NCBI GenBank assembly: GCA_013151865.1
Contig: JAADHN010000136.1
Span: 1-39,158, forward strand
Origin: Kiritimatiellota bacterium
GTDB taxonomy: Bacteria; Verrucomicrobiota; Lentisphaeria; Oligosphaerales; JAADHN01
DNA: 39,158 nucleotides
Direction of reading: 5' to 3'
Of this stretch, positions 12,557 through 34,231 are shown piece after piece (within the stretch, counting starts at the first letter, position 1; each line of letters begins with the position of its first letter). The position numbers and the translations under genes were made by a program. Below the pieces are notes generated by a model. The model did not search any database and was not told the DNA's origin. It worked only from the letters and a program-made list of their open reading frames with translations.

Positions 12557-13960
<1,404 letters not shown>

Positions 13961-14336
13961 GCGTGACTGCGTTGCCGACGACGCGAAGGTTCGTGCCCAC
14001 GGCGTGGTGAACGAACGACCGGCGCCGAACGGCGTGTCGGTCCGCCCGACGGCATGGGGCCCCGGTTCGCGTCCCGCGCGGCCGGGGTTTCTTTTGCCTG
14101 CCTTGCCGGGACAGCTCCGGCGCAAGCGACCGTCTGTTCGCTGCCCGCCGACGAACGGACGCGGGCAGTCTGTGCAGTTGATTCGCCCATCGGGTAATGC
14201 GATGGGAAGCCAAAAAGATCGAACTCATGCCCCCCGTTTTGCTGGACGGCCCGGTTTCCCCGTCGGACAAACCGGCCGCCGCCGGGCGGAGGTCCGGGGC
14301 GGCAAGGCACATCGACCCAGGACATGGGAGGCGTTG
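13961..14336. other. Intergenic region between gap and the sulfatase gene
   Basis: 376 bases. It contains the gap terminator at 14060-14095. The remaining 240 bases hold no coding frame or clear promoter; the sulfatase ribosome site GGGAGG is at the far end (about 14326-14331). Confidence 0.5.
14060..14095 (+). terminator. Intrinsic terminator of gap
   Basis: Outer stem CCCCGG (14060-14065) with CCGGGG (14082-14087), and inner stem CGCG (14068-14071) with CGCG (14075-14078) around TCC, followed directly by TTTCTTTT (14088-14095). Hairpin plus U-run, 100 bases after the gap stop codon. Confidence 0.65.
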
Positions 14337-15743
14337 ATGCGCAGGCCGAATATCCTGATCCTGCATACGGACCAGCAACGGTGGGATGCTCTCGGTGCGG
14401 CGGGCAATCCGGACATCCGGACCCCAAACCTCGACCGGCTGGCGTCCCGGGGCGCCTGCTTCGATCACCATTTCGTGCAGAACCCCGTCTGCATGCCGAG
14501 CCGCGTCAGTTTTCTCACAGGACAATACCCGTCCACGTTGCGGATCACGCATATGGGGGTGCCGGTCCCCGAGGACACCGTGACTTTGCCCCGACTGCTT
14601 CGGAACTACGGTTACCGGAGCGCGAATATCGGCAAGTTGCATTTTCTGCCTCACGCCAATCGCGACCATCGGGACGCACACCCGGACTACGGGTTCGACC
14701 ACCTCGAAATCTCCGATGAACCCGGCTGCTACGAAGACGCCTACTATGCATGGGTGGCGCGGAAAGCCCCGGATCAGCTCGACAGGATCAGTGTGGGATT
14801 GCCGCCCGCAACGGAAAAATGGCAGCAGATCATGGGGCTCCCCGACCCTGTGGTTCACCCCGAAGAGCGTTTTCCGAAACGTGCCATACCGGCGCGCTGT
14901 CGAAGCGACCTGACCCACACCGCGTTCGTTGCCGAGCAGACCGTCGAGTTCCTGAAAGCTTGCGGCGACCGGCCGTTCTGCTGCATCTCCGGCTTCTACT
15001 CCCCGCACTCCCCGTGGGTCGCCCCCCGGGAATGGCTGGAACTCTACGACCCCGGTCGGATGCACCTTCCCGAGTTTCCGCCTGAAATGGACGCCCGGCG
15101 GCGCGAAGGGTATTTCTCCGACGATGAATTGCGGGTGGCGCGGCAGGGGTATTACGGCATGGTCAGCGAGGTGGACCACCACGTGGGCCGGATCCTCGAT
15201 GCGCTCGAGCGCCTGGGATTGGCCGAGAACACGCTCGTGGTGTTCACCTCCGATCATGGCGAATGGCTGGGGGAGCATCTGAAGTACGGTAAAGGATATC
15301 CGGCCCTGGACTGCATCAGCCGCGTCCCGCTCTTGGTGCGTTGGCCCGCCGGGTTCGGGACCGAGGGTCGCGTCGTACACCGGATCGTCGAGCAGATCGA
15401 CGTGGTCCCCACCCTGCTCGATTGCGCCGGTATACCGCTGCCCGGACACCTGCAGGGGCGCTCGCTGGCGCCCCTCTGTGCGGGAAATGAGCGGGACGCA
15501 CCCGGCGAAGGACTCGGTATTACCGAACACCGCGGTTGGAAGAGCGTTCGTGCGGCCGGGTTCCGCTACGTGTGCGAAACCGGCGGCAAAGAAAGCTTGT
15601 ACGACCTCGATGCCGACCCCGGGGCCTATCGAAACGTTGTCGATGATTCCCGATACTTCCAGACCCTCGCGGATCTGCGCAAACGTCTCATGGTGCGCCT
15701 GCTTGAGGCGGAGCGTCCGTTGCCGCGCATTTGGCCGTATTGA
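14337..15743 (+). CDS. Family S1 sulfatase (formylglycine type), no signal peptide
   Basis: 468 residues. The ATG at 14337 has GGGAGG upstream and begins exactly at the sulfatase core (RRPNILILHTDQQRWD). Sulfatases of this alkaline-phosphatase-like fold hydrolyse sulfate esters using a formylglycine made from cysteine. The consensus C-x-P-S-R is present as Cys52-Met-Pro-Ser-Arg in VCMPSRVSFLTGQYPS. The metal-site Asp12/Gln13 lie in HTDQQ and Asp306-His307 in FTSDHGEWLGEH. The C-terminal region (ESLYDLDADPGAYRNVVDD) is also typical. No export signal is seen, so it probably removes sulfate from imported oligosaccharides or monosaccharides in the cytoplasm, unless the true start was misjudged. 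The formylglycine-generating enzyme is not in the window. It leads the plus-strand block; an exported CBM-like gene follows 97 bases later. The exact substrate cannot be read from the sequence. Confidence 0.94.
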   Translation: MRRPNILILHTDQQRWDALGAAGNPDIRTPNLDRLASRGACFDHHFVQNPVCMPSRVSFLTGQYPSTLRITHMGVPVPEDTVTLPRLLRNYGYRSANIGKLHFLPHANRDHRDAHPDYGFDHLEISDEPGCYEDAYYAWVARKAPDQLDRISVGLPPATEKWQQIMGLPDPVVHPEERFPKRAIPARCRSDLTHTAFVAEQTVEFLKACGDRPFCCISGFYSPHSPWVAPREWLELYDPGRMHLPEFPPEMDARRREGYFSDDELRVARQGYYGMVSEVDHHVGRILDALERLGLAENTLVVFTSDHGEWLGEHLKYGKGYPALDCISRVPLLVRWPAGFGTEGRVVHRIVEQIDVVPTLLDCAGIPLPGHLQGRSLAPLCAGNERDAPGEGLGITEHRGWKSVRAAGFRYVCETGGKESLYDLDADPGAYRNVVDDSRYFQTLADLRKRLMVRLLEAERPLPRIWPY

Positions 15744-16748: not shown

Positions 16749-16831
16749 ACCCGGGACGTAGGGGAGCATGAAGAACTCCCGGTTTCCGGCGCCGCTTGGA
16801 TTGGGGAACAGCTTCTCGGAAAGGGTTGGCC

Positions 16832-19675
16832 ATGAAGGAGCGTCCCGTTGTCTCGAAACACCGTGCCGGTCGGCAGCGGCGTCGCATTGCGGCCGCGCTC
16901 CTTACCGCGGCCGCGCTGTTGCTCGGCCCGGCCGTCGCGTCGGTCCGGGCGGCCCCGAGGGTTCGTGCGGGCGCCCTCGAGTTGCGCTTCGTGCCTCCGG
17001 ACCGGATCGCGGCCGGGGTGTCGTCCGATCCGTCTCTAATCGACCGGGTGCGCCTGCGGCTGGAACTCGGACCGAAACACGTCCCCCTCGCCCTCGGGGA
17101 CATCCATGCCGAAAAGACCCTTCCCGGCTTCACCGTGTTCGGACGCATCGCAGAGCCGCTCATGGACGTGGCTGTCGCGTTTACCCCAAGAGGGGAGAGT
17201 CTGCTTTGGACGGTGAAGCTTCGCAACCGGGCGCCGAAGGTCGTGCGGCTCGAATTGGGACCCGAGGTGGTGTTTGGACGCACCACGCGTCCCACAGTCT
17301 TTGACGGATTCAACGAGGACGCGGTCGCTCCGAAAACGCCGGCGCTCATGCACAATTTTCGGATGATGACCCCCTACGCTGCGGCCTGGACCCCACACGG
17401 CAGCGTGGGGACCGCCATTTCGCCCTTGGAACTGCCCTCCTGGCTCCAGCACGCGTATCGGCCCGGCCCGCCCGCGACTTTGACCACGACGACCCGCATT
17501 GTCCTCGCCTCGGGCGAGGAACGTTCCGTCCGGTTCGTGACCGTCGGCGCCCGCGGAGACTGGGGCAAATACGAGATCATGCAGGCGTACTTCGATGCCT
17601 ATCCGAAATGCTTCCTCCCGTTTCCGGGTGTGGACGAGCGCGTGTGGCTCGGCGGTGCGGAGTACCGTGCCTTTCCGGTCCGCGAATGGTCCCCCGAAAT
17701 CTGCCGACGGCTCGGGGCCGGATGGGAATGGTGCTACGCGCCGTTCCGGCGCACCGGCGATATCGTGGGCCGTCCCGAGTTCTGGGATTACACGCCGGTG
17801 CGTCCCTTCAGCAAACGACGCGCCTTGCCCATCGACGCTTTTCACGCTTGGCGCAAGAAAGCGTTTCGGGACGGTGACCGGAAATGCAACGTGATGATGG
17901 CCTTTTACGTCCCGGCCCAAATCTGGTGCGAGGAACGATTGGCCCATCAACGTTACGCCGACGCCCTCACGCTCGACCCCGACTCCCGCATCCGATTCGA
18001 TACGCCCTGGGTCACCGGGAACGACAACGAAGTGAGAGTGTTTCCATTCCGTACTTCGTGGGGCCGGCAGAGTCGGAAGGACATGGGCGAGGTCGCCCAC
18101 CGATTGAACTTGCGGGGCTTTGCCTTCGATACCGCCGATGGCGTCGCCCGCTACCGCGGACCGGCCCTCGCAAACCTCCCGAACAAATACCTCGCCTGGG
18201 ATAAAGACGGCGTGTTCTGCAACGAGAGCGTCGCCGTGGCCAAACTCATGGATTTTGTCCACACATTGCGGACTTCGGACGGCAAGCCGCTGGCCGTGAT
18301 CGGCAACATCGGCACCGGCGTTTATACCTCCGATATTCACTGCGACGCGGCCATGTTCGAAGGCGAGCCGTGGAAACTGTTCCGAACTTATCCGGACCGG
18401 CTTCGCTGGAAACTCGGGCGCAAGGCCGCCGTGTGGTGGGAAGGATACGGCATCGAGCGTTTCATCCGCGACGGCAATGACCCGACTCAGAAGCAGATCG
18501 CGGCGATCATGCGCGGGCTGGCGGATTTCACCTTGCTGCAAAGCCTGCGTCTGGGGTATATCCCGCCGCCCAACTACACTCAAGGCGTCGCCCGTCTCGC
18601 CCGGTGGCTCCCCCGCATTATCGACTGCATACGCCGTGGCTGGCAGCCCGTGCCCGGCGTGCGCGTCCCCGAGCCGCTGTGGGCGGCCCGGTACGGTGTG
18701 GGGCTCGACACCGTCCTGGTCGTGGCGCACGAGACGGGACAACCAGTGAAGGCCGACCTGCGGATCGAGAATTCGCGGTTCGGAGTGGACGGGCGGCTCA
18801 TGGTGGCCGACGCCCGTGGCCGACCGTTGCGCAATGCGTTTCCCTCGGACACCAACACGACGATGATTTCTGCGAATGTGCCGGTGCGGACCCCCAGACT
18901 ATTCGAGGCCGTGGCCGAATTGCTGCCGGCCGACCGGGGTCCGTTTCCATTGAAACAGGGCGAGGTCGCCGTCACACAAGGAGTGGCCCGCCGTCTCGTA
19001 CGCATCCTCATGCAGCCACGCCGCGCCGGCCGCGAGGTTGTCCTCCGCCTGGGCCGGCCGCGAGGTATGCATCTCGTCGCGGCGACTCTCGATGGGCGTA
19101 CTCTCGGGGTGGATGCCGAAGCTCGGTTCTCTTTCCGCCTGACCGCCCCTGCCGCACTCGTTGCGGAGTTCGCATCGGACACGTTCCAAGGCACCGATGC
19201 CGCGCTCTTCGACTTCCCGTTCGTGCGCGACGGCAAGCCCGCCTGCACTATCTTCGTGCCGGAGAAGGTCGGCCCGCGTGTCCGCCGGTCGGCATTCCGC
19301 ATCCAGGAGTACTGGCGCTACTGGTACGGGCGTGCTCTGAAACCCGGACATGATGTCCGCATTCCCATCCGAACCGGTGACCCGACGCCCGCCGGGGACG
19401 CCGCCGCCGTTGTCCTTCGGCTCGATGCAGCCATGCCCACATCCGGTGCAGTGGCGATCCAGGGCAACCGACTGTTGGTCCGGGCGCCGAATGAACTCAT
19501 GTTGGAAAGAACGGTTTCGCACTTGCTCGCGGCATTGGACCACCGCTTTTTCTTCCCGGACCGGATTCTCGGGTCGGCGCTGAACAATAAGGTTGGACTC
19601 GCCGGAAAGGTCCTGACTCCCGCCGGCGCAGCGGACTCCGCAAGCGAATTGGCGGAATTCCCGTTGCTTCCGTGA
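16832..19675 (+). CDS. Large secreted protein of unknown function, possible TIM-barrel glycosidase
   Basis: 947 residues. The ATG at 16832 follows GGAAAGGG and precedes a long signal peptide (arginine-rich, then AAALLTAAALLLGPAVASV, cleavage near residue 40). An upstream ATG at 16796 would weaken the signal. After a beta-rich N-terminal part (about 45-260) comes a segment of about 400 residues rich in Trp, Tyr and Asp (YRAFPVREWSPEI, FAFDTADGVARYRG near 430, AVWWEGYGIERF). It has the look of a TIM-barrel glycosidase, but I recognise no family or catalytic pair. The C-terminus has a stretch QGNRLLVRAPNELMLERTV near 880, similar to the N-terminal domain of alpha-glucuronidases and other secreted PVC enzymes, here in an unusual C-terminal place. 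It is the third gene of the sulfatase/CBM block. Function is not assigned. Confidence 0.85.
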   Translation: MKERPVVSKHRAGRQRRRIAAALLTAAALLLGPAVASVRAAPRVRAGALELRFVPPDRIAAGVSSDPSLIDRVRLRLELGPKHVPLALGDIHAEKTLPGFTVFGRIAEPLMDVAVAFTPRGESLLWTVKLRNRAPKVVRLELGPEVVFGRTTRPTVFDGFNEDAVAPKTPALMHNFRMMTPYAAAWTPHGSVGTAISPLELPSWLQHAYRPGPPATLTTTTRIVLASGEERSVRFVTVGARGDWGKYEIMQAYFDAYPKCFLPFPGVDERVWLGGAEYRAFPVREWSPEICRRLGAGWEWCYAPFRRTGDIVGRPEFWDYTPVRPFSKRRALPIDAFHAWRKKAFRDGDRKCNVMMAFYVPAQIWCEERLAHQRYADALTLDPDSRIRFDTPWVTGNDNEVRVFPFRTSWGRQSRKDMGEVAHRLNLRGFAFDTADGVARYRGPALANLPNKYLAWDKDGVFCNESVAVAKLMDFVHTLRTSDGKPLAVIGNIGTGVYTSDIHCDAAMFEGEPWKLFRTYPDRLRWKLGRKAAVWWEGYGIERFIRDGNDPTQKQIAAIMRGLADFTLLQSLRLGYIPPPNYTQGVARLARWLPRIIDCIRRGWQPVPGVRVPEPLWAARYGVGLDTVLVVAHETGQPVKADLRIENSRFGVDGRLMVADARGRPLRNAFPSDTNTTMISANVPVRTPRLFEAVAELLPADRGPFPLKQGEVAVTQGVARRLVRILMQPRRAGREVVLRLGRPRGMHLVAATLDGRTLGVDAEARFSFRLTAPAALVAEFASDTFQGTDAALFDFPFVRDGKPACTIFVPEKVGPRVRRSAFRIQEYWRYWYGRALKPGHDVRIPIRTGDPTPAGDAAAVVLRLDAAMPTSGAVAIQGNRLLVRAPNELMLERTVSHLLAALDHRFFFPDRILGSALNNKVGLAGKVLTPAGAADSASELAEFPLLP

Positions 19676-20354: not shown

Positions 20355-21593
20355 ATGGCACGACGCGTCGTCATCACGGGAATGGGGGCGGTCACGCCGA
20401 TCGGCATCGGGTTGCGGGAGTACTGGGAGGGGCTGCTCGAGGGCCGGAACGGTGTGGGGCCCATCACGCTCTTTGATCCGAGCGACTATCCCACCCGGAT
20501 CGCGGCCGAGGTTAAAGAGTGGGACCCCGCTCGGTTCATAGATCGGAAGCGTGCCCGACTCATGGCCCGCGGCACCCACGGGGTCGCGGCTGCTCTCATG
20601 GCTCTCGAGGACGCCCAGTGGGATGAGCACCCCGGCGACGGACGACTCGGGGTGGTCGGGGGGGTTGCAACTTCGCCTCAAGATGCGATCGAAGACGCCG
20701 TTGAAACTCTCCAAGATAAGGGGTATGGCAGATCCAGTCCGTTTACGCTACTGAAATGCTTTGCCAATTCTGCAGCATCCGAAACTGGGTTCGCGACCGG
20801 CTTCCAGGAGAAAGTCCTCACAATTTCTACCGCCTGTACGTCTGGACTCAATGCAGTTGGTGAAGCCTTTGCGGAAATTCGAGCCGGTAAGGTCGATGCG
20901 ATGCTGTGTGTTGGTACCGATTCTTTATTGTCCAAATATGTATATGCGTATTTCTGCCGAGCCGGTTTGCTTTCTATGAACAATGAAGATCCCGAGCATG
21001 CAAGCCGGCCGTTCGATGCTAAACGCGATGGCGGCGTGCTGGGGGAAGGTGGCGGCTGTCTCATGATTGAATCCCTCGATCATGCAAAACGCCGTGGGGC
21101 GAGAATCCGTGCTGAAATACTTGGATTCGGGTCGACAGCAATAGGAAACACACGTACGCCGGAATATGACACTGTCCGTGGGATTTCCAATGCAATGCGG
21201 GAAGCTTTTGCAGTCGCAAACGTCAGTCCATTTCACATTGATTATGTTGGCTGCCATGGCTGTTCTGATCCACGTATTGACATTTGGGAAACGCAAGCAC
21301 TCAAACACGTTTTTGGTGACCATGCTTTCCGAGTTTCTATTAGTTCAGTTAAATCAATGATCGGAATACCAACCTGCGCTGCTGGAACGCTCCAGTTGAT
21401 AGCGACTGTATTGGGAATGGAAAAGGGTATCGTAGCCCCAACCACTAATTATGAGTATCCAGATCCGGAATGTGACTTGGATTACGTGCCGAATGTGCCC
21501 AGGCACATCTTGATTCGGAGGGCGCTGGTGTATGCTCACGGTCTCGGCGGCAATGACTCTTCTGTAGTTCTGAAACGAGGATCGGCCATTTGA
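20355..21593 (+). CDS. FabF-like ketosynthase-fold protein lacking one active-site histidine
   Basis: 412 residues, the length of FabF (about 413), from the ATG at 20355 with GGGGGT upstream. The thiolase fold of type II beta-ketoacyl-ACP synthases is clear from MARRVVITGMGAVTPIG onward. The nucleophile is Cys161 (ISTACTSGLNA), the first histidine is His301 (VGCHGCSDPRID) and the lysine is Lys333 (SSVKSMIGIPTCAAG). The second histidine, His340 in E. coli FabF (KSMTGH), is Ile338 here. The gatekeeper Phe400 motif GFGGTN reads GLGGND. Normal decarboxylative condensation is therefore doubtful; acyl transfer, non-elongating condensation or a binding role may be retained. No acyl carrier protein gene is nearby. 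Its stop overlaps the TTG start of the membrane histidine kinase, so the two are coupled. From about residue 116 onward the gene is AT-rich, unlike its first third. Confidence 0.92.
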   Translation: MARRVVITGMGAVTPIGIGLREYWEGLLEGRNGVGPITLFDPSDYPTRIAAEVKEWDPARFIDRKRARLMARGTHGVAAALMALEDAQWDEHPGDGRLGVVGGVATSPQDAIEDAVETLQDKGYGRSSPFTLLKCFANSAASETGFATGFQEKVLTISTACTSGLNAVGEAFAEIRAGKVDAMLCVGTDSLLSKYVYAYFCRAGLLSMNNEDPEHASRPFDAKRDGGVLGEGGGCLMIESLDHAKRRGARIRAEILGFGSTAIGNTRTPEYDTVRGISNAMREAFAVANVSPFHIDYVGCHGCSDPRIDIWETQALKHVFGDHAFRVSISSVKSMIGIPTCAAGTLQLIATVLGMEKGIVAPTTNYEYPDPECDLDYVPNVPRHILIRRALVYAHGLGGNDSSVVLKRGSAI

Positions 21594-24079
21594 CTTTTGT
21601 CAGCACGGTCCTACTGCTTTGCACTATGATAAGCGCCGCGTTCTTGGCGTATGTCTTTTGGCGACGACACACGCGTGCTGTACACTTTGCATTCGCTTTT
21701 CTTATCAGTGCAATAACTGCTTGGGTATTTTGCTGTTTTTTGGTGAGTTTCTTTGTTGATAAGAAACACATAGAATACGCCGGGAGATTTACATTTAGTT
21801 CTTCTGCTTTTATTGCCGGAAGTTATGTTGTTTTTTCTTGGTTTTTTCCTGAATCAGTCTCCCGTAAACCATCCAAAAGAACTGTCATTCTGGTGGGCAT
21901 TTCTACTCTGCTATTCGCGGGCATATCTCTTACTGATCTTGTGCAAAAATCAATTGTACTTGCAGACCATGGACGTGCTCCTGTTTTTGGTCCACTTCAT
22001 TGGCTTTTTATAGTTTATATGTTCTCGATGTTTATTATGGGAACCATAAATCTCTTGTGTTCGTGGAAGTATTCATCTAATGGAAGAGAACGTCTGCAGA
22101 TTAAATATAGTTTCATCGGGTTCTTAATTTCCTTTACTCTGGGTTATGGGGCGGCATTTGCCTTACCTCACTTCACGAGTTTCAGCGACTATTTCCTTTT
22201 GGGCGCGGCCAGTCCTCTGGTTTGGATCGGGTTCACCTCTTATGCCATTTTCCGGCATCGGTTGCTGGATATCGGCGTCGCCATGCGGAACCTGCTGATT
22301 TTCGGGACCACGACCTTGGTGTTGTGCCTGGCTTTCCTGGTTCTCTTCAAGCTGCACTCGTTCTTTCGGGCCACGACTCCCCGGGGCACCTATTGGTTGG
22401 TCGCCGTTTTGCTGTCCATGGCGCTGGCGGCAGTGATCGGCCCTCTCGAACGGCGTGTAACCCTCCTTGTGGACCGCTTCATCTTTCGCCATCGGCACGA
22501 TCAGCAGCAGGCCCTGATCGCTTTCAACGACGGACTGGGACGGACCTTTGGAAGATTCGGCATCGCCGCCTTTGCGGCGGACCAGGTCGCGGTCATTTTC
22601 GCGGCGGAGAGCAGTGCGCTCTACCTGCCTGCGGCGGGCGATGACGATGCCTTGCGCCTGGCCGCCCGCCACGGGACCGGCGACCTGCCGGCGACCCTCG
22701 AAGCCGGGCATGCGTTGGTCGACTGTGCCAGGCGCCACGAGGATGCCGTGTTGCGCGAGGAACTCCTCTACGGTCCCGAAGCCTCGACGGCCACGGCGCG
22801 CGAGGCCGCCGCCGTGCTCGAAGCCGCGGGTGCGGAACTCGCTTCGACGCTCGAATGCCAAGGGCGACTGTTGGGTTTGCTCCTTCTCGGACCGCGACGG
22901 GAGGAGAACACTTACACGTCGGCCGACCTCAAACTCCTCCATGCCCTGGCCGGGCAAACCGCGGTCGCTCTGGACAATGCCCGACTGTACGATGCCATGG
23001 TTTCGTCACGCCGTCATTACGAGGCCATTCTCCAGCATATGCAGCGCGGGGTGCTCACTGTGGATGCGGAACTGCGCATCGTCATGCTCAACCGTGCGGC
23101 GAGTACGTTGTTCAATGTGGACCCCGTCGCCTGGCGGCGTCGCCCGGTCGTGGACTTGGCGCCCGAGTTCGAGGCGCCGCTGCGTGCCGTCCTCCGCCGG
23201 GGAGGGGAGCGCGCCCTGGAAGAGATCACGGTGCGGATCGGCGGGCGGGAACTCCCTCTCGGGTACGAAGTTTCCCGGCTCCCGAGCCTCACCGGACACC
23301 CAACCGGAGCGCTGATCGTCTTCGAGGACCTCACCGAGAGAAGAAAACTCGAAGCCGAAGTGCGCCGAATGGATCGGCTTGCTTCCGCCGGTACGCTTGC
23401 CGCCGGGGTGGCCCATGAGATCAAGAACCCTCTGGTCTCGATTCACACCTTCGCCCAGCTCCTGCCCGAGCGCGGTGATGAGCCGGAATTCCGCGCCGAA
23501 TTCTCGCGCGTGGTCACTTCGGAGGTGGACCGGATCAATCACATGGTGCAGAACCTGCTCCACTTGGCCCATCCCCGAGGGACACGTACCGGCTGCGTCG
23601 ATATGTGCGCGGTGTTGAATGATGCCTTTGTCCTGCTCGATCAACAGTTTCAGAAACACGACATTAACGTGCGGCGGCACGTCCATTGCGGCGACGCTCT
23701 TGTCAGCGGCGACCGCGAGCAATTGTACCAGGTGTTGCTCAATCTCTTTCAGAATGCGCTCGACGCTCTGATCGGTCGGCCCACACGTATTTTGCGTGTT
23801 TCTCTCGAAAAAGGCATGGGACGGCTTGGCAACGAGCCCAAAAAGGTGGTAGTAGTACGCGTCGGCGACAACGGTCCGGGCATCGAGTCTGTCCACTTGG
23901 CGCACATCTTCGATCCGTTTTACACGACCAAGCCGTCGGGGCATGGTCTGGGCCTCTCGATCTGCCACGGGATCATCCGTGACCACGGCGGCGTGATCCG
24001 AGCCCGCAGCGAGGTTGGCAAAGGAACGGAATTCACGATAGAACTTCCCCTTTTCGACCAGGCCGGACGGGGAAAGTGA
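21590..24079 (+). CDS. Membrane histidine kinase (7TM-type sensor, GAF, PAS, HisKA, HATPase)
   Basis: 829 residues. The start is TTG at 21590, overlapping the ketosynthase stop (TTGA); GAGG lies about 9 bases upstream, and the next ATG (21626) would cut into the first helix. Residues about 1-275 contain eight or nine hydrophobic helices, resembling the 7TM sensor module of some histidine kinases. A GAF domain follows at about 297-466 (VAVIFAAESSALYLP to QTAVALDNARLYD), then PAS at about 475-590 (LTVDAELRIVMLNRAAS). The H-box AAGVAHEIKNPL places the phosphorylated His at 609. The ATPase domain has the N-box NLFQNALDAL, GDNGPGIE and GHGLGLSICHGI. All kinase motifs are intact. The signal is probably sensed in or near the membrane, and the likely phosphoacceptor is the NtrC-type regulator downstream. 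Codons 1 to about 203 are AT-rich and the rest is GC-rich. Confidence 0.93.
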   Translation: MTFVSTVLLLCTMISAAFLAYVFWRRHTRAVHFAFAFLISAITAWVFCCFLVSFFVDKKHIEYAGRFTFSSSAFIAGSYVVFSWFFPESVSRKPSKRTVILVGISTLLFAGISLTDLVQKSIVLADHGRAPVFGPLHWLFIVYMFSMFIMGTINLLCSWKYSSNGRERLQIKYSFIGFLISFTLGYGAAFALPHFTSFSDYFLLGAASPLVWIGFTSYAIFRHRLLDIGVAMRNLLIFGTTTLVLCLAFLVLFKLHSFFRATTPRGTYWLVAVLLSMALAAVIGPLERRVTLLVDRFIFRHRHDQQQALIAFNDGLGRTFGRFGIAAFAADQVAVIFAAESSALYLPAAGDDDALRLAARHGTGDLPATLEAGHALVDCARRHEDAVLREELLYGPEASTATAREAAAVLEAAGAELASTLECQGRLLGLLLLGPRREENTYTSADLKLLHALAGQTAVALDNARLYDAMVSSRRHYEAILQHMQRGVLTVDAELRIVMLNRAASTLFNVDPVAWRRRPVVDLAPEFEAPLRAVLRRGGERALEEITVRIGGRELPLGYEVSRLPSLTGHPTGALIVFEDLTERRKLEAEVRRMDRLASAGTLAAGVAHEIKNPLVSIHTFAQLLPERGDEPEFRAEFSRVVTSEVDRINHMVQNLLHLAHPRGTRTGCVDMCAVLNDAFVLLDQQFQKHDINVRRHVHCGDALVSGDREQLYQVLLNLFQNALDALIGRPTRILRVSLEKGMGRLGNEPKKVVVVRVGDNGPGIESVHLAHIFDPFYTTKPSGHGLGLSICHGIIRDHGGVIRARSEVGKGTEFTIELPLFDQAGRGK

Positions 24080-24121: not shown

Positions 24122-26155
24122 ATGCAGGGCGTGTTGATCGTTTCCGCGGACCCCGCCGTTCGAACGTCGCTCCGAGTCATTCTCCAGCACGGCCGGACGG
24201 TGCACGAACGAATGACTGCCGCGGATGCCCTCGCTCTGGCCGCGACTCAGCGGATGGATGTGATCTTCGTGGACGATGTCTTCCCGGACGCCGGTGCGGC
24301 GGACTTGGTCCGCGAACTCAGTCGGCTCGGTTACGGGCCGCAGATCGTGCCCCTGCTCCTCTCTCTGGATCCGCCTTGCACGGAGCCGTTTCAGCCATAC
24401 GGAGTGCGGCATTTCGTGGCCAAGCCCTTTCAAGTGGCGCGGATTCGCGAGATCGTCGGCATCATCGAGTACCCATCCCCGCAACAGCAGAACCCTTTGC
24501 CGACCGAGACCTGGCATGACGCCCACCCTGCTCCCGCCATGATCGGTGGTCCCGTTTCCGCCTTGGGAGGGGGGGCGCATGACGGTGCGCTACCGGTGAG
24601 CATTCGGGAAGTGGCCCAGCGGCTCCAAAGACTGCTCTCGCGCTCCCTGAAGCGGGCCGACCTGTTCCGGGCCTTCGCCGAAGCCTTGGAAGAACAGTTC
24701 GACGTGGACAACGTGGTCATCCTGCTGCCGGCCGATGACACACCCGAATTCCGCGTCTTTTCCGGCAATGTGGTGGACGAGGTTCGCGAACAGTTTTTCA
24801 TCCCCTTCGGCCAACCTCTTCTGGCCGCATTGGCGCGTCTCGGCGAGCCTTTCGATCTGCGTGCCGACCACCGGCTTGAGCGGACTCAAGCGGACGGGGC
24901 GCGGCTCTATGCGGAACGACTCGGCATCCGGTTGCTCTGCCCCGTGCTGTCCCGGGGACGTCTCCTGGCCCTGGTCGGTCTGAGCCGGTCCCACCGGTAC
25001 GAGGAGGGGGCCGCTTTCCGCGACCTGCTCCGTGTTTTCCTCTCGTTCTTTGCGCGGGCCCTCGAACACGCTACCGAGCATGAACACCTCTCTGCCGGAG
25101 AAGCCCGGTACCGCATGATCGTCGACGCCCTGCCGGCCGGGGCTGTCCTGGCCTCGACAGACGGGACGTGCCTCGAAATCAATCGGGCTGCCGCGGCATT
25201 GCTCCGGATCGACCGGGAACGGTTCATCGGCCTCCCGGTCGAGAAGCTCGATTCACGCCTGGCAGGGCTGGTCCGGGAAACGTTGGCAACAGACCGTTGT
25301 CCCGCTCCCCGGCTCGTCCCTCTGCCGGCCGGCCCGGTGGAAGTCAGTACCGCCGCGGCGTTCGACCGGACTTTTCCCGGCGGCGTCGTTCTCATGCTGC
25401 GCCGCGGCGCCGTCGAGGCGGCGGGGGGGGACGGGGATGCTTCGGCCCAAACGCCCAACAACTGGCAGCGCCTCGCCGATGCCCTGGCCCACAACTTCAA
25501 GAACGCGCTGGTGCCGGTGAAGACTTGCGCCGAACTCCTCCCCGAACGCCACGACGATGAGGAATTCCGGCAGTCGTTTTTCCAAGTCACGCGCGATGGA
25601 CTTGACCGTGTCGACGCCTGGATCGAACAGCTTTCCCGTTTTGCCCAGATCGAGGCCGTCGGACGGCGACTCACGACATTTTCCCTCCACGACGCACTCG
25701 AAGGCGCCCTGGAAAAAGCGGTGGCCGAATTCCCGGAGATGAGCGTCGACGTGGCCCGCGATTACAGCGGCAAAGACAAGCTCCGGGCGGCGCGTGGCGT
25801 AATCGAACAGGCCTTCGTCGAACTCATCCGAAACGCCCTGACCGCCATGAAAGAGAACGGCGAACCGCGGCTTCGATTGTGCACGCAGGTGTTCGCTGCC
25901 GCGGTCCAGGCCACGATCATCGACAATGGTCCGGGCGTCCCGCCCGAACATGTGCAAACTGTGTTCGAACCGTTCCATACCAATGGCATTTCCGGTTTGG
26001 GGCTCGGGCTCAGTTACGTTCGGAACGCCGTCCGGATCCATCGGGGCAAGGTCAAACTCGTGCCCGCCATCGGCGCCGGGGCGTGCTTCCAGGTCGTCCT
26101 TCCCACGAACCTGACGGCGGAAAAAGCCGCCGTCGGGTTGGATGCGGCAGGCTGA
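24122..26155 (+). CDS. Degenerate receiver-GAF-PAS-kinase protein, probable pseudokinase
   Basis: 677 residues. The ATG at 24122 follows TAGGAGGAACC, an excellent site, 42 bases after the kinase gene. Residues 1-125 are a receiver domain: Asp51 (FVDD) and Lys101 (FVAKPF) are kept, but the acidic pair that binds magnesium is Ser8-Ala9 (IVSADP, against VVDDEP in the neighbouring regulator). GAF-like residues about 165-325 and a PAS domain about 330-430 follow. The kinase core parallels that of the upstream kinase (LLPERHDDEEFRQSF against LLPERGDEPEFRAEF), but the H-box is LAHNFKNALVP, with His457 followed by Asn instead of the conserved Glu. The ATPase domain looks usable (ELIRNALTAM, DNGPGVP, GLGLGLSYV). 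It may therefore be a scaffold, phosphatase or titration partner rather than a kinase. That is inference. Confidence 0.9.
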   Translation: MQGVLIVSADPAVRTSLRVILQHGRTVHERMTAADALALAATQRMDVIFVDDVFPDAGAADLVRELSRLGYGPQIVPLLLSLDPPCTEPFQPYGVRHFVAKPFQVARIREIVGIIEYPSPQQQNPLPTETWHDAHPAPAMIGGPVSALGGGAHDGALPVSIREVAQRLQRLLSRSLKRADLFRAFAEALEEQFDVDNVVILLPADDTPEFRVFSGNVVDEVREQFFIPFGQPLLAALARLGEPFDLRADHRLERTQADGARLYAERLGIRLLCPVLSRGRLLALVGLSRSHRYEEGAAFRDLLRVFLSFFARALEHATEHEHLSAGEARYRMIVDALPAGAVLASTDGTCLEINRAAAALLRIDRERFIGLPVEKLDSRLAGLVRETLATDRCPAPRLVPLPAGPVEVSTAAAFDRTFPGGVVLMLRRGAVEAAGGDGDASAQTPNNWQRLADALAHNFKNALVPVKTCAELLPERHDDEEFRQSFFQVTRDGLDRVDAWIEQLSRFAQIEAVGRRLTTFSLHDALEGALEKAVAEFPEMSVDVARDYSGKDKLRAARGVIEQAFVELIRNALTAMKENGEPRLRLCTQVFAAAVQATIIDNGPGVPPEHVQTVFEPFHTNGISGLGLGLSYVRNAVRIHRGKVKLVPAIGAGACFQVVLPTNLTAEKAAVGLDAAG

Positions 26156-26520
26156 GACGATGGATCGGCGGTGCGGTCCCGGGGCATGCCGGCGTCGTGG
26201 GACGCGCCCGCACCTCCACCGAACCCACTCGGGACAGGCGCCCCTCTCCCGCCCCTCTCCGGCCTGTCCCAAGCAGCGAGACAGGAATCGTCGGGGTGTG
26301 CAAGCGGAACATGCGCATGGGGCGACTCGCGAGCAGCGGCCCGGTCCGTACGGCCGCCGGGATCGCCCTCCAGGGGGAATCGCCGGGAGTGTGCTTTCGT
26401 GCAATTTGGGCGTCGCCAGGTTTGCGTGGGTGCGAGTACTGGTGCAAACAAGTAAACCGGGCACTTTGACCCGTGACAACGGCGGTCGCCGGCCCGGGCG
26501 CCACAGGGAGTTCCATCTCC
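26156..26520. other. Intergenic region between pseudokinase and NtrC-type regulator
   Basis: 365 bases, an unusually wide gap inside an apparent operon. It contains the hairpin with a duplicated 11-base loop motif (26231-26270). No convincing coding frame. A GTG at 26473 would extend the regulator by 16 residues. No -24/-12 sigma-54 promoter (TGGC-N8-TTGC pattern) was found here. Confidence 0.5.
26231..26270. repeat. 9-bp hairpin enclosing a tandem 11-bp pyrimidine repeat
   Basis: GGGACAGGC (26231-26239) pairs perfectly with GCCTGTCCC (26262-26270). The loop region holds two exact adjacent copies of CGCCCCTCTCC (26239-26249 and 26250-26260). On the opposite strand the loop has G-runs (GGGG, GGG, GGGG). 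It may be an RNA processing or attenuation element between the two coding regions. Confidence 0.5.
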
Positions 26521-27888
26521 GTGAAGACACTTTTGGTCGTAGACGACGAGCCCGGCGTGCGGTTCTCCCTCGAAACCGTGTTCCAGCGCCAGTATCGCGT
26601 GGTCGCAGTGGAAAACGGCGAGCAGGCCGTCGAAGCCCTGCGCACGGAAAGCCCGGACTTGGCCATCGTCGATATTCTCATGCCCGACATGTCCGGTCTG
26701 GACTTGCTGCCCCTCCTCAAGCAGGAAGATCCCCAACTGCCCGTGATCATGCTCTCCGCGCTCAAAGACGTGTCGAAAGTCGTGGACGCGATCCAACGCG
26801 GCGCCGCGCAGTATTTGACAAAACCCTTCGATGTGGACGAACTCCGCCTGGCCGTGCGTATGGCCCTGAGAAACGCGGGACGCCTCAATGAATTGACCGC
26901 ACTCGAAAGCGAAATGACCCGGTGGTACGATACATCGAGCATCGTCGGCGAATCCCGGGCCTGGCGCGAAACCTTGGCTGTGGCCCAACGGGCCGCGGCT
27001 TCACCGGACACCACTATCATGCTGTACGGCGAGAGCGGGACGGGCAAGGAACTCCTCGCCCGCCTGATTCACGCCCGGAGTCCTCGACGCAACGCACCCA
27101 TGATGCCCATTCATTGCGCCGCAGTCCCCGAAGCCCTGATGGAAAGTGAACTGTTCGGCCATGAAAAGGGCAGTTTCACCGGGGCCATGGAACGCCGTCG
27201 GGGGTGCGTCGAACTGGCCGATACGGGCACCCTGTTCCTGGACGAAATCGGTGAAATGCCTGCTGCCATGCAGAGCAAGCTGCTTCGCTTTCTCCAGGAT
27301 CACGAGTTCATGCGAGTGGGGGGCAGCGCCATCCTGCACGCCAATGTCCGCGTCATCGCCGCCACGAACCGAGATCTGAAAAAAGGGGTGAGCGAAGGCT
27401 GGTTCCGGGAAGACCTTTTCTACCGTCTGAACGTTGTGCCGATTACCATTCCGCCTCTGCGGGATCGTCCGGAAGACATCCCCTTGCTCGTGAATCATTA
27501 CGTGTCGCATTTCGCCCGGGAATGCCGGGGCGCTATGGAGAGTGTGCACGCCGCCGCCATGGAAATCCTCTGCAACTATCCTTGGCCCGGCAACATCCGT
27601 GAACTCCGCAACGTGATCGAGCGGGCCATCGTCCTCAACGGTGCGGCCCGAGAACTCACCCCGGCCCATCTTCCCGCCGAACTCGAGGGGGGCGCGGCTG
27701 GGACTTCGGCCGGCCCATCGCCCGCCTCGTTTCCCGTATCCCTGCAACAGGAGGTTCGGGAACTCGAAACCCGCCTGATCCGGGCCGCGCTCATTGAAGC
27801 CGGCGGCAACCTCTCCCAGGCCGCCGTGCTCCTCCAAACCACGCGCCGAATCCTCAAGTACAAGATCGACCAGCTCGGCTTGGATTGA
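26521..27888 (+). CDS. NtrC-family sigma-54-dependent response regulator
   Basis: 455 residues from the GTG at 26521, with AGGGAG 10 bases upstream, which starts directly at the receiver domain ([12 protein letters not shown]). GTG at 26473 is an alternative giving 471 residues. The receiver (1-115) is intact: Asp8, Asp9, phosphoacceptor Asp51 ([11 protein letters not shown]) and Lys101. The AAA+ sigma-54 interaction domain (about 133-370) has Walker A GESGTGKE, the sigma-54 contact loop as GSFTGA (a common variant of GAFTGA), Walker [11 protein letters not shown], and [15 protein letters not shown]. The C-terminus is a Fis-type helix-turn-helix ([20 protein letters not shown]). Once phosphorylated it should activate sigma-54 promoters. 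It is the likely output of the upstream kinase pair. A secreted polysaccharide lyase gene lies 214 bases downstream, but no sigma-54 site is visible before it, so the target genes are unknown. Confidence 0.96.
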
Positions 27889-28102
27889 TTCCGGGCTTGG
27901 GGTGCGTGCAAATCGAACGAATGCACGAATCGGGCCGATGCCTGGCGGAGGACGATCCCGACGGACGGGAGAGCTGTGGGGAACGGCAACGCCTGCGGTT
28001 CGCGTGGCGTCTTGCAAGGGCTTCGGCTGTGAGGTCGCAAGGGCGCGGAGGCCAATACGTCCCCGAGTCGCCCCGTTCTCACAGAGAACGAAGGAACGCG
28101 TC

Positions 28103-30811
28103 ATGTCCTTTTGCCACATGTTCCGCGGCCCCCTCGAACACTGCCTCGCCGGCCCGCTCCGGATTCCGATCTCTTGCTTGGCAGTGCTCGCACTCGCAGG
28201 CGACGGCGCTCCACTTCGGGGCGCTTCCAACGCCACGCTCCGGGCGGCGGACAAGGCGCCCCGTCGGATCGACTTCCCGAACTCGGGATTCGAACAGGGC
28301 GCGACAGGGTGGACTATCCCAAAACAGTCCACGTTGGCGACTGTATCCGCCGAACAGGCGGCCACCGGGCGATATTCCCTGAGAATCACCGATACCTCGA
28401 AACGGGGCGGGTCGAATGTCAGTGGCCCCAGGGTCCTGCTGCCCGGCGAAGGGTTCTATCGCATTCGCGGCAAAGTGTATCCTGTTTCGGGAAGCGGCCT
28501 GGGAATCTATGTCCGTCGGTTCGACAAAAACGGGAAAGCCCTCGGAGACGCCACGCACCTCCTGGGACTCGGAGGCGCAGAACGGGCTTGGCGGACCTTC
28601 GAGACCTCGCTGATGGTCTCATCGGAAGTCCGGTCCCTCCAGTTCTGGATCCACAGTTACGACAAGGCAGTGGTCACCGCGTACCTGGACGACTTCGAAA
28701 TCGACGCCATTGCTTTGCGCAGCGACGGCACAAACGAACGTTCCATAAAGGACCTGACCGTCATTCGCGAGCGCCTGACTCGGGCGGCCCTCGGATCGGC
28801 CGGCGCTTTCGACGATGTGCGTCGCTACATGGCCGAACAGCAATCGGATGGCAGCTGGACGGACATCGACTACGAGAATCGCAACCGCACCTCTTGGGCG
28901 CCCACGCGGCACGTGAGCCGAATCTACCGGATGGCCCGGGCCTGGCGTCATCCGGATTCCCCGCTCCACAACGACCCCGAACTTCGCGGGGCCATCCTCC
29001 GCGCCTGGGATTCGTGGACACGCCAAGACCTCAAGTGCCCGAACTGGTGGTACAATGTCATCGGCGTGCCCCGCATCGTCTATCGCGCCATGCTTCTCAT
29101 GGGGTCGGAACTGACTTCCGAACAGTTCAAGGCCGGGATTCGCATTCTCCGGAATGCCAAACTGGGAATGACGGGTCAGAACTTGGTTTGGGTCGCGGAA
29201 GTGACCGTGGCCCGAGGCTGTCTGGAACAAGATCCATGGACCGTTCAACTGGCCTTTCGGCGTATGGCGGACGAGATCCAGGTGGGCCTCGGGGAAGGCA
29301 TTCAACCGGACTACAGTTTCTACCAACATGGAACGCAGCTCTACAACGGCGGGTACGGAAAAGGTTTTTCTCGGGACTGCGCCTACTTTGCCGCCCTTGG
29401 CCGCGGAACGTGTTTCGCCTTTGGCAAAGACCGGATCGAGACCCTCGTCGCCTACCTGCTCGACGGCCAGCAATGGATGGTCCGCGGGCCCGTTTTCGAT
29501 TATAGCGCCTGCGGCCGCGAAATCGCCCGCAAAGGGGGCGGTAAGGCGGCCGGCCTGGCAGACGCCTGCCGCTCCCTGCTCGAACTCGACGCCGCCGCTC
29601 TCCCGCGGCGTGACGAACTCGAACGCTTCCGGGAACGCCTCGAACACCCCACCCCAGAAAACGCTCTGCGCGGAAACCGCCATTTCTGGCGGGCCGACTA
29701 CATGACTCACCACCGGGCCGCTTTCATGGTCTCGGTCCGAATGACCTCCCCCCGCACCCTCCAGACCGAGACCTGCAACGCCGAAAACCTCCTTGGGCGA
29801 CATCTCTCGGACGGAGTGATGTACCTGTATCGGCGCGGCGACGAGTACAAGAACGTTTTTCCGCTCTGGGACTGGAAGCGGCTGCCCGGCATCACGGTCG
29901 AACTCACGCCCGACCCCCCGGCGACCCGCAACGGTCAACGCGGGAAACGGGACTTTGTCGGTGGCGTGTCCGACGGCGTTTATGGACTGGCCGCCATGGA
30001 TTTCGCCCGGGGCCGATTGACCGCCCGCAAGAGCTGGTTCTTCTTCGACCGGGAAATCGTTTGCCTCGGGGCCGGTATCACGTGCCCCACCGATTTCCCT
30101 GTGGTCACTTCGCTCAATCAGTGTCGGCTCAAGGGGAAAGTGACCGTCGCAGACACGACCGGGAACGCGCGTCCCTCGAGCCGCGGGGAACACCGCCTGC
30201 AGGCGCCCGGTTGGGTCCTGCACGACGGCGTGGCTTATGTTTTCCCGGAAAGTGCGAGAGTGACGGTTCGGAACGCGTCGCAATCCGGCAACTGGCGACG
30301 GATCAACCATGTCTACCCGAAGACCGAACTTTCGATGGGCGTCTTCAGCCTCTGGATCGACCACGGAAAGCAGGTTGAAAACGGCGCCTACCGATACGTG
30401 GTCGTGCCGGAGGTCACACCGGCCACGGCGGCGGCCATCGCGGCCCGGTCGCCCGTGACCGTGCTCTCCAATACGGCGCAGAGGCAAGCTGTTCGGCACA
30501 ATGAGTCAGGCGTCTTGGGAATCGTCTTCTGGACGCCCGGCAGTCAATCCCTCCCGGACGGATCCCGAATCGGCGTGGATCGAGCCTGCCTGCTCTTGCT
30601 CCGACCGGACGGGAAACGGGGGATGAGGCTCGCCGTCGCCAATCCCGAGAATCGCCCCCTCGACCTCACCGTCACTTTGAAGGCCCGGTTCGAAGGCGAG
30701 GGGTGCGTGTGGTCCGCCGCAGACGGGGTGACCCGGGTCCGTTTTGCCCTTCCCGACGGGCCCCTTGCCGGCAGCAGCGTGGTCCGGCGCCTCTCGCGCC
30801 CCGGGCCGTGA
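28103..30811 (+). CDS. Secreted family 8 polysaccharide lyase with N-terminal CBM
   Basis: 902 residues from the ATG at 28103, with AAGGAA 8 bases upstream. A signal peptide (about 1-38, PISCLAVLALAGDGA) is followed by a CBM4/9-like jelly roll at about 50-205 (FPNSGFEQGATGWTIP, YLDDFEIDAI). The lyase is the PL8 fold of hyaluronate, chondroitin AC and xanthan lyases: an (alpha/alpha) toroid at about 215-560 followed by beta-sandwich domains. Conserved residues can be placed: Trp315/Trp316 in NWWYNVIGVP, Asn360 in TGQNLVW, His409 in SFYQHGTQLYNGGYG and Tyr418 nine residues later, the spacing seen in known PL8 enzymes. FPLWDWKRLPGIT is also typical. It cleaves uronic-acid polysaccharide by beta-elimination outside the cytoplasm; whether the substrate is hyaluronan, chondroitin or another polymer cannot be told. 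It is convergent with the mannosidase gene. Confidence 0.94.
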   Translation: MSFCHMFRGPLEHCLAGPLRIPISCLAVLALAGDGAPLRGASNATLRAADKAPRRIDFPNSGFEQGATGWTIPKQSTLATVSAEQAATGRYSLRITDTSKRGGSNVSGPRVLLPGEGFYRIRGKVYPVSGSGLGIYVRRFDKNGKALGDATHLLGLGGAERAWRTFETSLMVSSEVRSLQFWIHSYDKAVVTAYLDDFEIDAIALRSDGTNERSIKDLTVIRERLTRAALGSAGAFDDVRRYMAEQQSDGSWTDIDYENRNRTSWAPTRHVSRIYRMARAWRHPDSPLHNDPELRGAILRAWDSWTRQDLKCPNWWYNVIGVPRIVYRAMLLMGSELTSEQFKAGIRILRNAKLGMTGQNLVWVAEVTVARGCLEQDPWTVQLAFRRMADEIQVGLGEGIQPDYSFYQHGTQLYNGGYGKGFSRDCAYFAALGRGTCFAFGKDRIETLVAYLLDGQQWMVRGPVFDYSACGREIARKGGGKAAGLADACRSLLELDAAALPRRDELERFRERLEHPTPENALRGNRHFWRADYMTHHRAAFMVSVRMTSPRTLQTETCNAENLLGRHLSDGVMYLYRRGDEYKNVFPLWDWKRLPGITVELTPDPPATRNGQRGKRDFVGGVSDGVYGLAAMDFARGRLTARKSWFFFDREIVCLGAGITCPTDFPVVTSLNQCRLKGKVTVADTTGNARPSSRGEHRLQAPGWVLHDGVAYVFPESARVTVRNASQSGNWRRINHVYPKTELSMGVFSLWIDHGKQVENGAYRYVVVPEVTPATAAAIAARSPVTVLSNTAQRQAVRHNESGVLGIVFWTPGSQSLPDGSRIGVDRACLLLLRPDGKRGMRLAVANPENRPLDLTVTLKARFEGEGCVWSAADGVTRVRFALPDGPLAGSSVVRRLSRPGP

Positions 30812-30896: not shown

Positions 30897-33800
30897 TCAC
30901 ATCCGAATCCGAAACGTGCGCACCTGGAACGGCTCGATCCGGAACTGGAACGCCCCGTCCGTGAGAGGCAGAGCAGGACCCGGGTCTTCTTCGATGAAGT
31001 TGCAGGGGACCACGGTGCTCGGTGCGGGATCGAAGGCTGCGCGAACCGGCGTCCGGCCCCCATGCGCCTCGTAGAACCGGGCGATCCAGCCATCTCCGTC
31101 TTGGGCGGGCTTGAGCGTGTCGAGCACGACCCCCGCGCCTTCGATACGGCAGAAAGAGCGCGAGCGGTCGGACGGCGGACCTGCCGAGGGCAACCCGGGC
31201 ACGGCGCGGAGCGGTGCGTTCAGTTCCGCGGCGGCGCGGACCGTCCCGCCTTCGGTCCAGCCGCCGAGGTGCGGCAGCAGGGCGTAGACAAAGCGATGGC
31301 GTCCCAAGTCGGCCTTCGGGTCGGGGTACTCGGGGCCCCGCAACAGGGTCAGGCGCAGCACATTCCCTCTCACATCGCAACCGTACCGAGAATCGTTCAA
31401 GAGGCTGACCCCGTATCCGGCTTCGGACAAGTCCATCCAGCGTTGGGCCGCCACCTCGAACTTCTGCTCTTCCCAGCTCGTGTTCCGGTGTGTGGGCCGC
31501 TCGACCGCACCGAACTGCACCTCGAAGGTTGCGTGCGGACTCCGCACCGCCACAGGAAACGCCACTTTAAGCATTGTCTGACGCTCGCGCCAATCCACCA
31601 CCGCACTGAAATCGATGCGCGGCGTCTGCCGGTAGATCCGAATGTCGCACGTGATCCGCGTCTTGCGATACTTGCGGCTCACACGCACCGTCGCCCGCAC
31701 GGGACCGGTCTCGACCACCTCGATCCGGGCGGCCCCCTCGAATCGGTATCGCTTCCTGTCAAAGGTGTCGTGGACGTTCCAAGCGGCCTCCCGCTCCGGG
31801 CCGTCCTGGAAAAGCTGCCAGTCATTAGCCCGGGCGCCGTCGGAAAGCACTTCACGTCCGTTGCGTTTGTCCAACAGACGGATGATCGCCCCCTCTTTGT
31901 CAAGCTCGATTCGGAAAAACTGGTTTTCGAGGCAGTCCCTGTCAGCAACAAGCGCCGCGTCGGTTTCCGGTGCGTGGCCTCGGCGCACCAGAAAGCCTTC
32001 GATGCCCATAGCCGGCGCCGACGCCGGTTCGAAAACCACTCGGGCCGCCCCGGACGGCCCCCGCTCGACGACCTGCGCCGGACAGGCGCAACCGTTCGAG
32101 TCGATCAATTGCACCGGATCGTCGCCGGGAAGCTCGATGACCGCCTCGACCGGGTCCGAACGCTCCCAGGAAAGGGCGTTGAGCACTGTCAAATCGCCCC
32201 CGACAGCCGCGATTTCCGCCAGGGCCGCGGCCGCCCGGTCCCGGACCGTCTTGGCGGTTTTGGCGGCCCGGGCATGGTCGGCGGCGGCATCGACATATAC
32301 CTCGCCGATCGAACTGCCCGGCAGGATGTCGTGAAACTGCTGCAACAAAACGCGCCGCCAGGCGTCGTGCAGCAAAGCGGGCTCCAGCGATGTGCCGGAC
32401 ATCTGAGCGAGTGAAGCCCAAACTTCCGCTTCCCGCAACAGTAGTTCCGTGCGCCGGTTGGCCTGTTTCGTCCGACTCTGGCTGGTGTACGTACCCCGGT
32501 GCGTCTCGAGGTAGAGTTCGCCTTCCCATACCGGCAGGTCGCGGGCCGTTTTCGCCGCGCGGTCGTAGAACTCTTCTTCCCCGGCAATGCGTGTGGCCGG
32601 CAGGCCGGGAAAGGTCCGGGCCCGTTCGGCGAATTCGAGCATCTGGGCTGTGGGGCCCCCGCCGCCGTCGCCGTATCCGAAGGGCAGCAGCAACTCGTCG
32701 TAGACTCCCTTTTCCCGGAAGTTCTCCCAACCCGCCGCCAGTTGTTCCGGGCGCGGAGCGCCGTTGTACCCGGACGGAAGCTTCGGGATGTGCGCCAGGA
32801 CGCGACTGCCGTCGATTCCTTGCCAGTGGAACAGGTGGTGCGGAAACGGGTTCGTGCTTTGCCAGTGCAGCTTGCATGTGAAGAAATAGTCGATCCCGCA
32901 TCCCTTGAGGATTTGGGGCAGGTTGCCGGGATAACCGAACACATCGGGCAGCCAGCACGTCCGGGGCCGCGTGCCGAACTCCGCGGCAAAAAACTCGAGT
33001 CCGTACAGGATTTGGCGAATCAGCGATTCGCCCGAGGGTACATTGCAGTCCGATTCCACCCACAGCGCCCCCGTAGTATGCCAGCGCCCGGCTTTCGCCC
33101 ACTTGCGGATTTCGGCATACAGGTCCGGGTATACCTCCCGCACATAGGCATAAAGTTGGGCTTGGCTGCAGGAAAAATGGAACTCCGGGTACTGCTCGAG
33201 CAGGCGTACGGCGGTAGAAAAAGTCCGCGCACATTTCCGGATGGTCTCGCGGACGGGCCAGAGCCAGGCGGTGTCGATATGCGTGTGCCCCGCCAGAAGG
33301 ATTCGCCCGCCTTCGGGGTCCGGCGCGATGTCGCCGACGCGCTCGTGGAGCAGGGCGCGCGCCGATTCGGCGTCGCGACGGAGACGTTCCGACTCGACCG
33401 TCAGGTCGATCTCGAGCAGCGCTGCCTCCAGGGCCGCCGCGAGCCGGTCGCGCCGGCGTGGGTCGCGCACGGCGCGCACGGCCTCCCAAGTGAAAAGCAA
33501 ATCGAGCCACGCCGCTTCCATCACGCGGTCCACAAGGACCAACGCGGCGCCGTCGAATCGCCCGAACCCCCGGCGCAGGCCCGGCTCGCGCCACGCCCGG
33601 GCCAGGGACATGGCCTCGATCGTCAGTTCGTGCGGACCTGCCGCCGGCAAGGGGACCCGTGTGTGGTTCGCGTCGACTCCCGCCCAGGGGCGACCGTCCA
33701 CCGACAGCAACGATTCCAGGTCGCTGAAGCCGAAATCGAGGAGCATGGCCGTTCCGGGGTCGGCCGACGGCGCCGGAACTTCGAACCGGGTCCGCAGAAA

Positions 33801-33983: not shown

Positions 33984-34168
33984 TGTACGTTCTCCCGAAT
34001 CTGCGTGTCCCCACCGGATTGTCGTGTCCCGCTCAGGGGCGATTCGCCTCGGCGGGAGAGCCGTTCGTCCCAGGCGTCGGGTTGTGCCTTCGGTCCCGCG
34101 GAGCATCGCCCACGATGCCGGCATCCTCCGGACGAAACGATCCGGGGGAGGTGCGCCGTCGTCCCGGT

Positions 34169-34195
34169 GGGCTCGCCGCAGATGCAGGCGAGCCC
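34169..34195 (-). terminator. Perfect 9-bp hairpin after the giant secreted protein gene
   Basis: GGGCTCGCC (34169-34177) and GGCGAGCCC (34187-34195) around a 9-base loop, 36 bases past the stop codon of the gene ending at 34232. On the minus strand no U-run follows; on the plus strand GTTTT follows, but no plus-strand gene ends here. It may be a terminator without U-run, an mRNA end-stabiliser between this gene and the mannosidase, or a barrier to antisense transcripts. Confidence 0.4.
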
Positions 34196-34231
34196 GTTTT
34201 CCATGGCGCACCCAGCCCATGAACCGGGCTA

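Follow-up and report, generated by a model that had tools for sequence, protein, structure and literature searches.

A tract of low GC content that begins inside a gene for a ketosynthase (KS) and ends inside the adjoining gene for a membrane sensor kinase is probably one allele of an exchangeable specificity cassette, carried by a signalling operon of lipid type. It lies in a contig of a Kiritimatiellota MAG (JAADHN010000136.1), here called the window, meaning the whole stretch of 39,158 nucleotides that was analysed. In relatives, the KS-plus-sensor block has evidently, from comparison of their genomes, been swapped as a unit at homologous positions, with the kinase core, a second kinase and the neighbouring genes staying in place. 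The composition and position of the window's own tract suggest that it is likewise a swapped allele, derived from a donor of lower GC content.

An AT-rich tract inside two genes

The tract covers the core of the KS and the seven-helix (7TM) sensor of the kinase, from 20,664 to 22,200 on the forward strand. An earlier note on this DNA had placed an abrupt drop in GC near 20,700 and a return near 22,200, and a likelihood fit of two change points to the full length of the window recovered exactly 20,701-22,200, with a GC content of 0.460 inside and 0.649 outside. Third-codon positions, proposed there as a check, gave a sharp change as well: the GC3 segment runs from 20,664 to 22,168, at 0.39 inside against 0.75 outside (2 delta lnL 154), with 3-lnL intervals of 20,637-20,700 on the left (~60 bases) and 22,109-22,247 on the right (~140 bases). 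These edges fall at KS codons ~104-116 and at codons ~173-220 of the kinase, and the tract does start and end inside the two genes with both reading frames intact, as had been claimed. Before the left junction stands a GC-normal N-terminal part of the KS (codons 1 to ~103; 20,355-20,663, forward strand), which we take to be the native side, while the right junction zone (22,109-22,247, forward strand) is also where two alleles of a relative, described below, converge.

Segment by segment, GC3 is 0.77 over KS codons 1-115, 0.46 and 0.43 in the KS core, 0.37 and 0.38 over codons 1-203 of the kinase, and 0.77 over its codons 204-300. Amino-acid content is thus not the cause of the AT-richness: the KS is a soluble protein, and the long helices that the structural model shows at kinase residues 204-300 have a GC3 of 0.77; the earlier argument, which set AT-richness in the soluble KS part against its absence from the later membrane helices of the kinase, was sound. 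Within a comparison sample of ~1.05 Mb from this MAG, the tract is the lowest-GC 1.5 kb, the next-lowest contig minimum being 0.503. Tetranucleotides, suggested as a further check, bore out the anomaly in one respect and dissolved it in another: the raw profile of the tract is more extreme than that of any of the 616 genome chunks, whereas the profile corrected for base composition is unremarkable, with 107 of the 616 more deviant. The oddity of the tract therefore lies in its GC content, with no exotic oligonucleotide signature.

The ketosynthase and its kinase

The KS (20,355-21,593, forward strand) is a FabF-like beta-ketoacyl synthase of 412 aa that matches Pfam PF00109 and PF02801 above their cut-offs, which makes it a member of the ketosynthase superfamily. 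Its closest relatives in the PDB are KAS II enzymes and its AlphaFold model is confident (pLDDT 93, pTM 0.94), yet it scores 392 bits against the FabF equivalog model of NCBIfam (TIGR03150), below the cut-off of 493.75. The active-site residues Cys161, His301 and Lys333 are present, and the equivalent of FabF His340 is Ile338, so that the Cys-His-His triad of FabF and KAS II is broken at its third position. Among 37 KS homologues that position is held by N in 22, H in 5, C in 4, I in 4 and S in 2, and the nucleophilic Cys is kept in every one. We rejected a paralogous source for the KS within the window's genome, where the next-best KS is 39% identical. In one relative (locus L027, G017:C56) the KS frame shifts at about codon 327 (7054-7059), through either an assembly error or a real disruption.

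Kinase 1 (21,590-24,079, forward strand) starts at a TTG that overlaps the KS stop codon. Its Pfam domains are HisKA_7TM (residues 8-228), GAF_3 (325-463), PAS (476-580), HisKA (601-661) and HATPase (707-821); the match to PF16927 reaches 44.6 bits against a cut-off of 28.6 and, with HisKA and HATPase also matched, identifies a HisKA_7TM sensor kinase. The model for PrsK, the PEP-CTERM kinase of the XrtA system (TIGR02916), gives 107.5 bits, below its cut-off of 300. In the AlphaFold model (pLDDT 86) the membrane sensor (21,596-22,252, forward strand) has seven helices, at residues 3-25, 30-54, 58-85, 96-113, 137-161, 165-195 and 201-221, and compared with the PDB it finds weak matches to GPCR-like folds (best E 2e-3).

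The operon and its surroundings

An operon of KS, 7TM-GAF-PAS kinase 1, kinase 2 and usually an NtrC regulator is distributed across the window's phylum. Kinase similarity detected it in 54 of 388 genomes, in a sample that had one genome per species, included several genera with many species and contained MAGs of varying quality. Eight phylum members have ACTCCTACGGGAGGCTGC at the 16S probe-338 site, which we take to be the Lentisphaerae/Opitutae type (EUB338-IV); on this basis the phylum may tentatively be assigned to Verrucomicrobiota, broadly understood. The unit conserved in relatives, both in the window's order and in the phylum, is KS, kinase 1 and kinase 2, and in nearly all complete loci the KS lies directly 5' of kinase 1, often overlapping its start. 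Kinase 2 (24,122-26,155, forward strand) has a receiver-GAF-PAS-HisKA-HATPase architecture by Pfam and is kept downstream of kinase 1 in relatives; it belongs to the backbone, as does the NtrC-type sigma-54 response regulator, also assigned by Pfam (26,473-27,888, forward strand; 59-60% identical in G001 and G012). In some genera a short receiver protein takes the place of the NtrC-type gene, or none is detected. Scanned for sigma-54 sites, the region upstream of the KS showed nothing consistent.

A gene for a FadL-like outer-membrane protein (Pfam PF03349) lies near the KS, usually divergent, in ~28 loci, and the FadL genes of the window's genome are unlinked to the operon, on other contigs. 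On one of these a FadL-like gene adjoins a kinase (G000:C91, 35,740-36,867 and 34,208-34,945), a pair that is possibly an unlinked half of the same system. Upstream of the intergenic region before the KS, the window encodes a predicted protein of 959 aa with no Pfam match (16,796-19,675). The operon is flanked by genes for a sulfatase (13,842-15,743), a family 8 polysaccharide lyase (27,794-30,811) and a family 38 mannosidase (30,897-34,616), a set like that of polysaccharide degraders. Omnitrophota MAGs (L101, L104) and loci L052 and L072 likewise have a KS followed by a 7TM kinase resembling kinase 1 and then by another kinase.

Exchange of the cassette in relatives

Close congeners in two other genera are 78-85% identical in DNA outside the block and have no detectable DNA similarity within it. 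Two genomes of genus g100, G220 and G451, align at 81% identity through the upstream genes as far as KS codon ~36, cannot be aligned between that point and kinase codon ~440, and agree again at 85% over the 5.1 kb that follow; G199 and G216 repeat the pattern at 78-80% DNA identity. The edges recur in about 30 pairs, nearly all of them in g100 and g88, and mostly at KS codons 34-43 and kinase codons 436-451. Protein identities of G220 and G451 follow suit, at 0.89 in the kinase core and 0.94 in kinase 2, with 0.41 in the KS core and 0.28 in the sensor.

Within the block, KS and sensor vary together. Given the backbone, KS-core and sensor distances correlate with a partial Mantel r of 0.63 (p 0.009) in one genus, where neither correlates positively with kinase 2, and with a partial r of 0.62 (p 0.0005) over 35 loci. 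In AU tests, the grouping of G220 with G451 is supported by the kinase core and kinase 2 and rejected by the KS core (5e-5) and the sensor (1e-42), while that of G220 with G361 has the support of the KS core at 100/100 and is rejected by kinase 2 (1.6e-5). The KS core of G199 nests among alleles of g100, which belongs to another family (support 99/97), and G303 and G398 carry the same class of allele along 91% of the cassette, with backbones among the more distant of their genus. G281 (L241) is a natural reassortant, with the KS of one group and the sensor of another, so KS and sensor are separable by recombination and their matching is not absolute. Cassette GC3 is below that of the backbone in 30 of 35 loci, which are not mutually independent, and strongly so in g100 and g88. 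In relatives of these two genera, then, KS and sensor co-vary and the downstream backbone follows the genome, as at an agr- or comQXP-type locus, of which the KS would be the synthase.

The receptor is at times kept without its enzyme. In G376 (L257) the KS is absent upstream of the kinase (oriented position 6676), which abuts the FadL-like gene, and in G279 (L276, 216-551) the KS is cut to ~100 residues; both keep the receptor and resemble the receiver-only strains of other signalling systems.

A putative lipid-type signalling system

The arrangement may be explained as follows. The KS would make a signal derived from a fatty acyl chain, which the FadL-like outer-membrane protein, encoded next to the operon in most relatives, could pass across the outer membrane; a precedent for such help is the reported role of FadL in the uptake of long-chain AHLs by Sinorhizobium (PMC9938287). 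In kinase 1, the 7TM domain would recognise the matching signal together with GAF, and kinase 2 and the sigma-54 regulator would relay it, the regulator forming the end of the phosphorelay. Recombination would swap the matched pair of KS and sensor, as in agr and comQXP, and by keeping synthase and receptor matched such exchange might leave groups deaf to each other. Our belief is evenly divided over the larger claim, namely that this is a new class of small-molecule quorum sensing, in which a modified ketosynthase of FabF fold and a receptor kinase of 7TM-GAF type make up a linked specificity cassette that recombination moves between species and families, creating non-peptide pherotypes across a largely uncultured phylum.

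The exchange might instead be real and have nothing to do with quorum sensing, an account that we regard as unlikely and yet to be taken seriously. The KS would modify a membrane lipid, or sense acyl-ACP as a co-receptor, the kinase would monitor the lipid state of its own cell, and diversity would reflect lipid chemistry or predation. Loss of the FabF His340 equivalent in 32 of the 37 homologues makes normal chain elongation doubtful, and this consideration joins the closeness of the KS sequence to housekeeping FabF and the lack of any identified target gene of the operon on the side of the lipid account. A diffusible product nevertheless fits better than the sensing of lipid state with the near-constant adjacency and co-inheritance of KS and membrane sensor, with the divergent gene for an outer-membrane FadL-like protein, and with the loss of KS but not receptor in G376 and G279; nor is there an obvious reason why a kinase that watches an internal lipid state should have many parallel allele groups.

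Origin of the tract in the window

The earlier note had offered two explanations for the tract: recombination had brought in a core-plus-sensor cassette, or assembly had joined two strains. As a property of the operon in relatives, the former now has strong support, through sharp DNA boundaries in the same two genes, co-inherited alleles and the rejection of tree congruence, and from its composition and position the window's tract may be read in the same way. That tract is shorter than the cassette of the two well-sampled genera. The genomes compared include none of the window's own genus. The window's nearest relatives have a KS 55-60% identical to its own, a distance at which separate trees, another check that had been suggested, are without power at the window's own junctions. 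A search for a donor among relatives in the window's order found segment identities that single out none, and yielded neither a donor nor a same-species allele for the tract. The earlier concern that close relatives might carry uniformly AT-rich versions of the genes proved unfounded: a comparable dip is absent from the four nearest relatives, as expected if the tract came from a lower-GC donor. In the window's order, the MAG G002 has two contigs (C121 and C3) with different sensor halves: between codons 107 and 200 their residues agree at 53%, and from the point of the window's GC recovery onwards the identity rises to 97-100%. One of the two contigs ends in ~75 bases that the other matches exactly, like a branch in an assembly graph, and a second copy of the gene is possible.

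Drift without transfer, by which a native tract would have moved towards AT through relaxed selection, local codon choice or local mutational bias, is highly improbable. It would sit well with a tetranucleotide profile that is ordinary for the genome once base composition is corrected, but poorly with abrupt third-codon edges inside two genes, with a dip missing from the nearest relatives, and with the exchange of the same block in other genera, accompanied by tree conflict that drift cannot produce. Slightly less probable still is a chimera of two strains joined at 20,700 and 22,200, for although the window's MAG consists of 176 contigs and assemblers struggle at this locus (contig ends of relatives fall 11 times inside the KS or sensor half and once in kinase 2; binomial p 0.01, a post hoc count), both frames are intact, both joins lie at homologous positions, the KS folds confidently as one protein, and AT-rich KS-plus-sensor blocks of the same mosaic kind are present in the single-contig genomes G451 and G251.

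Comparison with known systems

The pherotype loci known to us in which synthase and receptor parts are swapped belong to peptide systems of Gram-positive bacteria, and we are aware of no such system described from the window's phylum. A literature search of open-access text found no match for a signal system of ketosynthase and kinase. A lipid-type counterpart, if true, would provide candidate signal synthases and matched receptors, would offer natural allele groups in which specificity and social conflict could be tested, and would explain why assemblies tend to break at the operon.

CqsA is a PLP enzyme and not a ketosynthase, and we know of no exchange cassette across the CqsA/CqsS genes. 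In Vibrio, the membrane histidine kinase CqsS reads a hydroxyketone signal and its relay ends in LuxO (PMC3310172). A lipid-like signal, a membrane histidine kinase and a sigma-54 regulator at the end of the relay are points of likeness to the putative system here, in which the enzyme that adjoins the receptor is a ketosynthase instead of the PLP-dependent CqsA. PpyS, the photopyrone synthase, is a ketosynthase with a Cys-His-Asn triad that makes a quorum-sensing signal (PMC4578411), and that triad is the commonest combination among the KS homologues described above; PpyS, however, is derived from FabH-type enzymes and has a LuxR solo as receptor, whereas this KS is of FabF type and paired with a kinase.

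In the agr locus of Staphylococcus, SNPs of the variable region of agrBDC show linkage among themselves but none with agrA, itself linked to the flanks (PMC8768832). A linked synthase part and receptor-kinase sensor thus vary together there, as KS and sensor do here, but the agr signal is a processed peptide; in the present operon a ketosynthase of FabF fold is the putative synthase, and KS and kinase 1 have no peptide gene between them. ComX, too, is a modified peptide. The comQXP locus of Bacillus is polymorphic in synthase, signal and receptor, and its communication groups coexist in one place (PMC4408185). It resembles the present operon as a polymorphic synthase/receptor locus that defines groups, and differs in its enzymes and its Gram-positive hosts. 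Given this difference in chemistry from agr and comQXP, the KS-sensor operon would work like both and be a member of neither.
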